Shown here: positions 4,323 to 8,080 of the stretch, piece after piece | How positions within the stretch are numbered: position 1 is the first letter of the stretch | Layout of the letters: each line of letters starts with the position of its first letter | Source of the DNA: Mangrovibacterium marinum | Lineage (GTDB): Bacteria; Bacteroidota; Bacteroidia; Bacteroidales; Prolixibacteraceae | Assembly: GCF_003046625.1 (NCBI RefSeq) | Contig: NZ_QAAD01000019.1 | Span: 1-64,000 of the forward strand | DNA length: 64,000 nt | Reading direction: 5' to 3' | Notes under the pieces: generated by a model | Told to the model about the DNA's origin: nothing | Seen by the model: the letters and a program-made list of their open reading frames with translations, nothing else | The model's database searches: none | Position numbers and translations under genes: made by a program

Positions 4323-4793
4323 TTAGCGGTTTGTAATTGTCTCGGGATTGAGATCGTGGTTTTGCATGCGATACCAAGCCAGCTCCTCGTATTTGGTGCC
4401 GACTTTGCCATAGTTGGCATAGGGATCGATGCTGATTCCTCCGCGTGGCAAAAATTTGCCCCACACCTCAATGTACTTGGGATCCATCAATTGAATCAGA
4501 TCCTTCATGATGATGTTGATGCAGTCTTCATGAAAATCGCCATGATTGCGGAAGCTGAACAAATACAATTTCAGCGACTTGCTTTCCACCATCTTTTCAC
4601 CGGGAATGTAGCTGATATAGATGGTTGCAAAATCGGGCTGCCCGGTAATGGGGCACAAGCTGGTAAACTCCGGTGCGTTAAACTTCACCCAATAGTCGTT
4701 CTGCGGATGTTTGTTATCGAATGTTTCCAACAGCTCGGGACTGTAATTAAATCCGTAGTTGGTTTCGCTTCCTAAATGTGTTAAGTTATCCAT
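4323..4793 (-). CDS. queF: NADPH-dependent 7-cyano-7-deazaguanine reductase (QueF, type I)
   Basis: QueF reduces the nitrile preQ0 to the aminomethyl base preQ1 with NADPH, the step before tRNA insertion in queuosine synthesis. At 156 aa it is the short unimodular type I enzyme. The catalytic Cys47 lies in [14 protein letters not shown] with the proton-donor Asp54. The family motif [15 protein letters not shown] (residues 70-84) and FHE (87-89), which binds the pyrimidine edge, are intact. It lies downstream of queC on the same strand but is separated by 251 bp of short repeats, so co-transcription with queC is plausible but not shown. Cytosolic. Confidence 0.96.
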
Positions 4794-5044: not shown

Positions 5045-5719
5045 TCACTGATCACTTTTATGCTTCTTTTTCAAAAGGTAACTGTCCAGCCCGTTTTTAC
5101 GAAGCTTACAGGAGGGGCAGTGTCCGCAACCATCGCCCACGATACCATTATAGCAAGTGAGTGTTTGCGTACGCACCAGGTCAAACACCTCCAGCTCATC
5201 CGATAATTGCCAAATTTCCTCTTTGTTCTTCCACATCAAAGGCGTGTGAATCTCATAAGGATAGTCCATCGACAGGTTCAACGTCTGATTCAATGAGCGA
5301 ACGAACTCATCGCGACAATCGGGATAGCCGCTGTAGTCGGCCTGCCCTACGCCGGTAACCAAATGATGGATATCCTTCGACTTGGCATAGATGGCCGCAT
5401 AAGTCAGAAACAACATATTACGTCCTTCCACCAAGGTGTTTGGCGGACGATCGGCCGGCTTCTCGGCTTCCACCTCCAGGTCCGGATTTGTTAAGGCATT
5501 ATCGGTGATCTGGCTCAACATATCCAGTTTCAGAATCCGCAGAGGCACCTGTGCCTCACGGGCTATCTTACTTGCAACTTCAAGCTCCAGCTTATGTCGC
5601 TGTCCGTAATCGAACGAGATGGCTTCCACCTCGTCAAACTCGCGGATGGCCCAAAACAGGCAGGTTGTTGAATCCTGACCTCCGGAAAAAACGACCAATG
5701 CTTTTCTCTTATCACTCAT
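5045..5719 (-). CDS. queC: 7-cyano-7-deazaguanine synthase (QueC)
   Basis: QueC converts 7-carboxy-7-deazaguanine to preQ0, using ATP and ammonia. The 224-aa protein opens with the PP-loop SGGQDS (residues 12-17). Its C-terminal zinc site has four cysteines (C189, C198, C201, C204, in [11 protein letters not shown]). Length and motif layout are standard. It starts 46 bp after the stop of the queuosine-precursor transporter gene on the same strand, so the two very likely share a transcript and the preQ1 riboswitch upstream. The product feeds QueF, encoded just downstream. Confidence 0.97.
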
Positions 5720-5765: not shown

Positions 5766-6446
5766 TTAAATCTGTTTTAAACGAAAAGGATTGTACGAGA
5801 CCTCCTCGTCGAAGGTGTCAATTCCTTCAATTTCCTTCACCTTGTTAACCACCAAAACCGTAAACGGCAGGATGATAATTTCGTAAGCTGTTTTCAGTAG
5901 CGCCTGGGTGAGCACCATACCGGCAATAACCGAAAGCGGGAAAACTCCGGCAAAAGCAATCGTGATGAAGATCAACGAGTCGGCTCCCTCACCGGCCAGC
6001 GTGGAGACGATGGCACGCAGCGAAAAACCCCGCCCCTTGGTCATCAACTTAAATTTACTCATCACATAAGCATTCAGAAACGAACCGGCCATATAAGCCA
6101 TCAGGCTGGCGAGCACCAGGCGAATGGAAGTTCCCAAAACAGTATGAAAAGCCTCCTGATGTTCGTAAAAGGGCGCTGCGGGAACGCCGATGGCCAAGGC
6201 AAAGAAAAATGCGGCCATCACATTCACCCCAAAACCAGCCCAAATAATCAGGCGTGCCTTGGCATAGCCCCACACTTCAGCAATTACGTCGTTAATAATG
6301 TAGGTTACAGGAAAAATTAACACTCCCGCCGGAGCCGACCAGGGCCCAACCATGATAATTTTCGTCGCTAAGATATTGGCGATTAACAAACTTGCAGCGA
6401 ACAAAACGCCGGTCAACAGGAATAATACAGATACTTTATTTCTCAT
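5766..6446 (-). CDS. Queuosine precursor transporter (YhhQ/COG1738, VUT family)
   Basis: An inner-membrane protein of 226 aa with about six hydrophobic segments, belonging to the VUT/YhhQ family whose E. coli member imports preQ0 and preQ1. Family-typical stretches are NILATKII near residue 25, the segment GPWSAPAGVLIFPVTYIIND and GEGADSLIFITIAFAG. It is the first gene of the group with queC. The start codon is four nucleotides past a candidate preQ1-I riboswitch and a -7 box TATCTTTG lies further upstream. Together these support both the start and the function: queuosine precursor uptake under feedback by preQ1. Confidence 0.92.
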   Translation of the reverse strand: MRNKVSVLFLLTGVLFAASLLIANILATKIIMVGPWSAPAGVLIFPVTYIINDVIAEVWGYAKARLIIWAGFGVNVMAAFFFALAIGVPAAPFYEHQEAFHTVLGTSIRLVLASLMAYMAGSFLNAYVMSKFKLMTKGRGFSLRAIVSTLAGEGADSLIFITIAFAGVFPLSVIAGMVLTQALLKTAYEIIILPFTVLVVNKVKEIEGIDTFDEEVSYNPFRLKQI

Positions 6447-6450
6447 CGAT

Positions 6451-6481
6451 CTTGTTTTTTACGTGGTTATCAAGAACACGT
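6451..6481 (-). promoter_or_regulatory. Candidate preQ1 class I riboswitch
   Basis: Read on the minus strand, a 5-bp stem P1 (ACGTG 6481-6477 with CACGT 6465-6461) encloses the loop TTCTTGATAAC. It is followed by an A6 run and CAAG (6454-6451). The loop bases CTTG (6474-6471) can pair with the tail CAAG, giving the H-type pseudoknot with A-rich third loop that defines preQ1-I aptamers. From memory, the loop resembles the B. subtilis aptamer, with a compensatory UAG/CUA to UUG/CAA change, and the UAAC and AAAACAAG parts resemble the T. tengcongensis aptamer. C6466 would be the ligand-specifying C. The pseudoknot ends four nucleotides before the transporter ATG, where a ribosome would bind, so translational repression by preQ1 is the likely mode. 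Confidence 0.82.
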
Positions 6482-6496
6482 GGTTAATAACGAGCG

Positions 6497-6504
6497 CAAA
6501 GATA
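6497..6504 (-). promoter_or_regulatory. Promoter -7 box for the queuosine transporter/queC genes
   Basis: TATCTTTG on the minus strand matches the Bacteroidota -7 consensus TAnnTTTG. It lies 16 bp upstream of the riboswitch, so transcription would start just before the aptamer. No clear TTTG -33 partner is seen. Confidence 0.45.
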
Positions 6505-6850: not shown

Positions 6851-8080
6851 ATGAAGTTTCACGAGTTCGACCTACACGACGATATTTTAGATGCCCTTTA
6901 TGATATGGGCTTTGACGAAGCAACAGTAGTACAGGAAAACACCATCCCCTTGATTTTGGAAGGGCACGACCTGATTGGCTGTGCACAAACCGGAACCGGC
7001 AAAACAGCCGCATTCATGCTGCCCATTATCGAAAAGGTAGCTCAAAAATCGGCCGGAGCGACCCGTGCCCTGATTATTGTCCCCACCCGGGAGCTGGCCA
7101 TCCAGATTGAACAACAGGTACAGGGCTTTTCCTACTATGCCGGCACCACCTCCTGTGCAATTTACGGCGGTGGCGATGGCAAAGAATGGGAAGAACAACG
7201 CAAAGCACTGGAAGACGGCGTAGATATTGTTGTGGCCACACCGGGCAAGCTGATCTCATTTATCGACAACGAAATTGCCAATCTGAAGCAGGTTGAGTAC
7301 GTGGTTCTGGATGAAGCCGACCGCATGCTCGACATCGGCTTTCACGACGATATTATCCGCATTTTCAGCCACCTGCCCGAGCAACGGCAAACCCTCATGT
7401 TTAGTGCAACCATGCCACCCAAAATCCGACAACTGGCTGCCAAAGTGCTGAAAGATCCGAAAGAATTTGCCTCAGCCATCAGTAAACCGGCCGAAGGGGT
7501 ATTGCAAGCCGCCTACGTGTGTCACGAAGCTCAAAAGCTACCGCTTATTCAGCAGCTGATTACCGGCAAAGATGATTGCCAAAGCATCATCGTCTTCAGC
7601 TCGACCAAGCGCAAGGTAAACCTGATTGTAAAGGCTTTACAGAAGAAAAACCTGGATGCCCAGGGCATTTCGTCGGACCTGGAACAAAAAGAACGCGAGG
7701 AAGTGCTGATGAAATTCCGGGCCCGCCAAACCCGTATTATTGTGGCCACCGATGTGCTAAGCCGCGGTATCGACATTAAAGACATTAACCTGGTGGTCAA
7801 TTTCGATGTGCCGGGTGATGCCGAGGATTATGTACACCGAATTGGACGTACTGCACGGGCGAATACCACCGGTATCGCACTTACTTTTGTGAATGAAGAC
7901 GACATGTACAAGTTCCAGCAAATTGAGGAACTGATCGGCAGTGAAGTGTTCAAAGCTCCCCTGCCTCCGGAATTGGGCGAAGGACCGGAGTGGAAAGTTA
8001 TTCAGCGGAAGAAAAAGAAGAAAGGCAACTTTAAACGCAATAATCGGCCAAAAGGAAATCACCGGCAACCCAAAAAGTAA
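6851..8080 (+). CDS. DEAD-box ATP-dependent RNA helicase
   Basis: A 409-aa ATP-dependent RNA helicase that unwinds structured RNA, typically in ribosome assembly, RNA decay or cold adaptation. All core motifs are visible: a Q motif near residue 27 (VQENTIPLIL), AQTGTGKT (I), PTRELA (Ia), VATPGK (Ib), DEAD (II), SAT (III), RGIDI (V) and HRIGRTAR (VI). The C-terminus is a short, very basic tail (KKKKKGNFKRNN and onward), typical of RNA-binding extensions in RhlE/CshA-like enzymes. It stands alone on the plus strand, followed by a strong bidirectional terminator. Assignment to a particular subfamily is not possible here. Confidence 0.95.
   Translation: MKFHEFDLHDDILDALYDMGFDEATVVQENTIPLILEGHDLIGCAQTGTGKTAAFMLPIIEKVAQKSAGATRALIIVPTRELAIQIEQQVQGFSYYAGTTSCAIYGGGDGKEWEEQRKALEDGVDIVVATPGKLISFIDNEIANLKQVEYVVLDEADRMLDIGFHDDIIRIFSHLPEQRQTLMFSATMPPKIRQLAAKVLKDPKEFASAISKPAEGVLQAAYVCHEAQKLPLIQQLITGKDDCQSIIVFSSTKRKVNLIVKALQKKNLDAQGISSDLEQKEREEVLMKFRARQTRIIVATDVLSRGIDIKDINLVVNFDVPGDAEDYVHRIGRTARANTTGIALTFVNEDDMYKFQQIEELIGSEVFKAPLPPELGEGPEWKVIQRKKKKKGNFKRNNRPKGNHRQPKK

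Follow-up and report, generated by a model that had tools for sequence, protein, structure and literature searches.

The queuosine genes yhhQ, queC and queF follow one another on the minus strand of the 64,000-nt stretch of Mangrovibacterium marinum DNA analysed here (the window), and the short leader in front of them raises the question of whether it is a ligand-responsive RNA and, if so, how it would act on the genes downstream. A sequence-only reading had proposed a preQ1-I riboswitch acting on translation. We compared this proposal with known aptamers, with the leaders of related genomes and with covariance models, and found that most of it stands, that some of its wording has to be tempered, and that relatives of the element in gut and rumen bacteria are arranged in a manner that the single copy does not reveal.

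A pseudoknot in the leader of a queuosine operon

On the minus strand, positions 6481-6451 can be read directly as a 31-nt H-type pseudoknot (Table 1); its stem, loop, A6 run, CTTG/CAAG pairing and coordinates had been given exactly to the base by the earlier reading. Written as DNA, the minus-strand leader runs ...TATCTTTG CGCTCGTTATTAACC ACGTG TTCTTGATAAC CACGT AAAAAA CAAG ATCG ATG. The position of the element four bases before the ATG of a YhhQ-type transporter, with queC behind it, was likewise confirmed by protein family matches (TIGR00697 and QueC), and queF, which had gone unmentioned, follows. The gene order yhhQ-queC-queF is found again in relatives, and a DEAD-box helicase gene lies at 6851 in the opposite orientation. 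The genome also contains tgt and a queD-family protein, so that a pathway that uses preQ1 is at hand.

Table 1. Features of the leader and operon in the window, and yhhQ leaders of relatives that carry several aptamers
Feature	Position	Strand	Remarks
P1 5' strand ACGUG	6481-6477	minus	Partner is 6461-6465; P1 covaries order-wide
Loop UUCUUGAUAAC, 11 nt	6476-6466	minus	First U, CUUG and terminal AC invariant
P2 5' strand CUUG, within loop	6474-6471	minus	Read from sequence
Specificity C, last loop nt	6466	minus	Directly 5' of P1 3' strand
P1 3' strand CACGU	6465-6461	minus	Pairs with ACGUG; covariation
A-rich L3 linker, A6	6460-6455	minus	Aligned with B. subtilis and T. tengcongensis A-rich linkers
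P2 3' strand CAAG	6454-6451	minus	Pairs with loop CUUG 6474-6471 (pseudoknot)
AUCG spacer	6450-6447	minus	Followed by AUG at 6446
Bacteroidota-type -7 promoter element TATCTTTG (TAnnTTTG)	6497..6504	minus	Read from sequence
yhhQ/QPTR, queuosine precursor transporter, 226 aa	5766..6446	minus	Pfam Vut_1 2e-48; TIGR00697 1.3e-33
queC, 7-cyano-7-deazaguanine synthase	5045..5719	minus	Pfam QueC 9.6e-79; TIGR00364 2.7e-77
queF (QueF-II), preQ1 synthase	4323..4793	minus	TIGR03139 2.5e-52
Three aptamer units (L123, L125, L127, L128, L130, L131, L132, L133, L134, L135, L138, L139, L146, L152, L157)	Within ~120 nt before yhhQ
Two aptamer units (L115, L122, L124, L126, L136, L142)	Within ~120 nt before yhhQ

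Judged by pseudoknot architecture, conservation, covariation across the Bacteroidales and the queuosine genes that it accompanies, the element is very probably a preQ1-I (class I) riboswitch of type II that forms almost the entire 5' UTR of the yhhQ-queC-queF operon and is proposed to place it under ligand control. The G-C pair at the floor of the binding pocket (G6477-C6465) and the specificity C (C6466) are both invariant in 67 leaders, and the P1 3' strand is preceded by AC and not UC (AAC, 6468-6466), which is the rule for type II (PMC11625349). The A6 linker ends in A before the P2 3' strand and is nearly invariant among relatives, and the aptamer lies in the leader of genes for queuosine synthesis and transport. 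In a MAFFT alignment with the aptamers of T. tengcongensis (Tte) and B. subtilis, whose sequences come from PMC10639078, the closing G, the first loop U, the P2 G and C, the specificity C and the A-rich linker coincide; gaps fall in both the loop and the linker, and the register was therefore checked by eye. Minimum free energy folding of the leader was unremarkable (z = 0.40) with a method that does not model pseudoknots, as is expected for so small an aptamer whose pseudoknot lies outside the folding model.

The same alignment bears on the identity of the ligand, which might be preQ0, alone or together with preQ1, if the aptamer is matched to a transporter that possibly prefers preQ0. E. coli YhhQ imports preQ0, the affinity of the Tte type II aptamer for preQ0 is 17-fold below that for preQ1 (PMC10622847, PMC5372724), and the operon includes queC, whose product makes preQ0. 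On the other side, queF, which converts preQ0 to preQ1, is part of the same operon, class I aptamers prefer preQ1 wherever the cited work measured both ligands, and the binding-pocket positions are unchanged in the alignment; we consider preQ0 an unlikely ligand here.

A preQ1-I riboswitch at this locus is of an already known kind, since a review lists the Bacteroidota among the phyla with class I riboswitches of types I and II (PMC11625349) and the link between yhhQ and preQ1 riboswitches was published earlier (PMC5372724, PMC10622847); the single element adds nothing new in kind. The sequence-only reading had held that the element gives experimental support for the substrate of the transporter, and this has to be reworded as evidence from regulatory context for an association already in print.

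Detection and conservation across the Bacteroidales

A descriptor of architecture only, taken from the known preQ1-I layout (5-bp P1, loop U...C, A-rich linker and 4-bp P2), matches one site on both strands of the window, namely 6481-6451, and 100 simulated windows gave 2 matches in all, or about 0.02 expected per window. The match to Rfam model RF00522 that had been foretold did not materialize: nothing was found at the site by the gathering cut-off (39 bits, which the element does not reach), at E <= 10 on 181 nt or in a genome search. None of 20 related leaders was detected by RF00522 either, so the model misses the whole lineage and Rfam silence at this site, a limit of the library model, says little. 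A genome search with RF00522 passes in only 1 of 14 control genomes, and published preQ1-I riboswitches exist in both E. coli (PMC10622847) and B. subtilis (PMC11625349); the RF00522 score is a library threshold and no defining property of preQ1-I.

Two further models were used. R1 holds 31 aptamers, among them that of the window, and its score at the window is therefore not independent; R2 holds 21 aptamers from leaders of Bacteroidaceae and Prevotellaceae only, with nothing from the family of the window. R2 assigned the site 42.3 bits on the window (E = 7e-9; next match, E = 3.1) and returned it as the sole site in the whole genome (E = 5.0e-7), where no second riboswitch was found below E = 0.18, the next best value. 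The element is a single unit and the sole copy in the genome in searches with both models. The preQ1-I identity first read from the letters thus holds by the R2 score, by alignment with known aptamers and by covariation.

Leaders for comparison were gathered by way of the transporter protein and not of the RNA. In the Prolixibacteraceae (Sunxiuqinia, Mangrovibacterium, Draconibacterium, Maribellus and relatives), the element is present in all complete leaders among the closer homologues that were examined. Over 67 related leaders, the majority base has a mean frequency of 0.95 within the aptamer, 0.80 over the first 60 coding nucleotides and 0.44-0.52 upstream. Within the aptamer, the positions that vary freely are loop nucleotide 2 and three nucleotides of L2; the modelled P1 and P2 pairs show no variation in the family of the window. 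Compensatory changes in the second helix, which had been claimed from the outset, are accordingly found in other Bacteroidales families but not within the window's own, where P2 is invariant. Across the order, P1 covaries from U-A to A-U and from C-G to A-U, and P2 from U-A to C-G and from U-A to G-C, giving P1 variants CGAG/CTCG and AGAG/CTCT and P2 variants CCTG/CAGG and CTGG/CCAG in which both strands change together; the pattern is the same when the window's family is left out. Pairing was observed in 98.8% of pairing cells, a figure biased upward by alignment rows that were partly picked with a descriptor requiring P1 and most of P2; shuffles gave 87.3%, and slid versions never exceeded 57%.

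These patterns also bear on a different reading of the leader, as a DNA operator or protein-binding element in place of an RNA aptamer, which could draw on the near invariance of P1 CGTG/CACG in the family and on the CACGTG palindrome in the window. We find it barely credible, given that the promoter element precedes it in all of the leaders, that P1 and P2 each switch sequence on both sides together, and that the invariant unpaired positions of loop and tail match those of preQ1-I.

With R1, matches occur in 18 of 396 genomes of a class-wide sample, and all matches better than 1e-3 fall in the order of the window; order-wide, 82 of 392 genomes match at E <= 0.05, of which those near 0.01-0.05 may include chance. 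Elsewhere in the Bacteroidales, the aptamer precedes queC (L184, L185 and L198) and a queD-like gene (L183), and L181 has a weak match before queC, apparently a diverged copy at the edge of detection. The leaders of L172-L177, before yhhQ, carry a Bacteroides-side variant, CGTGTATTCTAGAACACCACGTAAAAAACAGG, in which P2 requires an A-A mismatch, somewhat as in the sequence from T. tengcongensis, where P2 may be incomplete. No recognizable aptamer precedes yhhQ at L110, L119, L121 or L145, all from Bacteroidales; L145 retains CGTGTCCTTGATAACCAC and looks like a decayed copy. Outside the Bacteroidota, the search gave one candidate only, L109 (Fibrobacterota; record titled Fibrobacteres), in which a near-identical aptamer lies 45-75 nt before a yhhQ-like start, farther from the gene than in the Bacteroidota; horizontal transfer with a different expression platform is possible.

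An upstream hairpin abutting P1 (P0), which had seemed frequent on visual inspection, was rejected as a general feature after folding against shuffles: the mean p was 0.47, only 14 of 99 cases reached p <= 0.05, and the window has no such hairpin. A strong hairpin directly 5' of P1 was seen in some families (L189, L192, L193, L195, L197, L198, L210 and L212).

Predicted control of translation initiation

All 67 of 67 leaders have a motif TAnnTT(T/C)G in the 60 nt that precede P1, compared with 10 of 199 control windows, and in all 67 the promoter element TAnnTTTG lies 12-26 nt before P1. The distance from the last P2 base to the start codon is 2-5 nt in the family and 4 in the window. Taken together, the promoter element and this spacing make the aptamer approximately the entire 5' UTR. 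Only four bases separate aptamer and AUG, leaving no space for a terminator, and this argues for translational control. A Shine-Dalgarno-like core is absent from 66 of the 67 leaders, that of the window included, and the usual masking of a Shine-Dalgarno sequence is therefore excluded.

We suggest that the riboswitch most likely blocks translation initiation directly, a mechanism read from the layout of the leader. In this scheme, preQ1 would pair with C6466 and stabilize P2 (CUUG/CAAG); the closed P2 would sequester the A-rich tail, which spans -14 to -5 counted from the AUG; and this region, as the stretch on which ribosomes would have to load in leaders devoid of a Shine-Dalgarno sequence, would become unavailable for initiation. 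Plentiful preQ1 would then repress the genes for the transporter and for biosynthesis. Transcription attenuation has a precedent in the preQ1-I type II riboswitch of B. subtilis, which regulates transcription (PMC11625349), but is very improbable here, with 2-5 nt between P2 and start codon in all family relatives and with the sole terminator-like match on the minus strand (6411-6395) inside the yhhQ coding sequence and at about shuffle level. Direct blockage of initiation would make the leader a test case for translational control by a riboswitch where there is no Shine-Dalgarno sequence, and a 2024 review of preQ1 (PMC11625349) sees a challenge for the future in riboswitches that lack canonical expression-platform signals. 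Both this mechanism and the preference for preQ1 over preQ0 are predictions.

Tandem arrays in relatives and comparison with known systems

At 21 loci of the genome collection, from gut and rumen Bacteroidales, multiple aptamers precede yhhQ, with three units at 15 loci and two at 6 (Table 1); the counts include the middle units of L131, L133 and L138, the last of which has a shortened tail. In the commonest array, unit 1 reads CGAG-loop CCUG-CUCG-CAGG, unit 2 CGUG-...-CACG and unit 3 CGAG-loop CUUG-CUCG-CAAG, with zero linker bases between units and the AUG a few bases beyond the last of them. Most arrays share zero-length linkers and alternating P1 sequences. P2 of the middle unit is often incomplete (CCAG/CCAG), and ligand binding by middle units is only putative. 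The array junction was present in 11 of 301 genomes surveyed of that family, all from one genus group, in which they make up 11 of about 21 sampled. Other matches to the tandem pattern look like chance in GC-rich coding DNA and were set aside; only the T-N-A-rich matches are real. A tree of the transporters groups 20 genes with arrays in a single clade (100/100 support), and the gene of Prevotella L115, with two units 18 nt apart, lies outside it, so that L115 looks like a second, separate doubling.

A 2022 survey of 44,270 genomes listed preQ1-I among the classes not found in tandem (PMC9481103), and in the later literature searched, which included few subscription papers, we found no report of tandem preQ1-I; priority is not certain. 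We think it probable that the Bacteroidota harbour a type II lineage that is invisible to Rfam and lacks Shine-Dalgarno sequences, that one clade of gut and rumen Bacteroidaceae/Prevotellaceae within it has expanded to two or three aptamer units that abut ahead of yhhQ, usually linkerless and with P1 and P2 differing from unit to unit, and that these are the first tandem preQ1-I riboswitches, with a steeper response to preQ1.

The single element allows regulation and function to be assigned to a queuosine operon of a phylum in which the standard RNA library sees nothing, and sequenced marine and gut Bacteroidota carry the switch unlabelled. Through the arrays, preQ1-I would join the stacking classes; its units, at about 30 nt, are among the smallest natural aptamers, a size that makes cooperative control directly testable. 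Set beside the tandem riboswitches already described (PMC9481103), it is the relatives of the window, stacking two or three aptamers per leader, that are comparable, whereas the window has its one. The E. coli preQ1-I riboswitch of type III, also before yhhQ (PMC10622847), resembles the element of the window in the family of its target gene and in its translational position directly 5' of that gene, but has a buried AAGG Shine-Dalgarno sequence and a pyrimidine-rich loop, neither of which the window possesses. With the type II element of B. subtilis, the window has in common the layout of the loop (UUCUAG.. against UUCUUG.. in the window), the C before the P1 3' strand and the A6 linker; the B. 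subtilis element controls transcription, in contrast to an element that ends 4 nt before the AUG. In comparison with the type II element of T. tengcongensis, the window has a full CUUG/CAAG P2, a different P1 sequence and no Shine-Dalgarno GG buried in the tail, and the two share a 5-bp P1, AC before the P1 3' strand, an A-rich linker, a CAAG P2 3' strand and translational control, which in the window is predicted.
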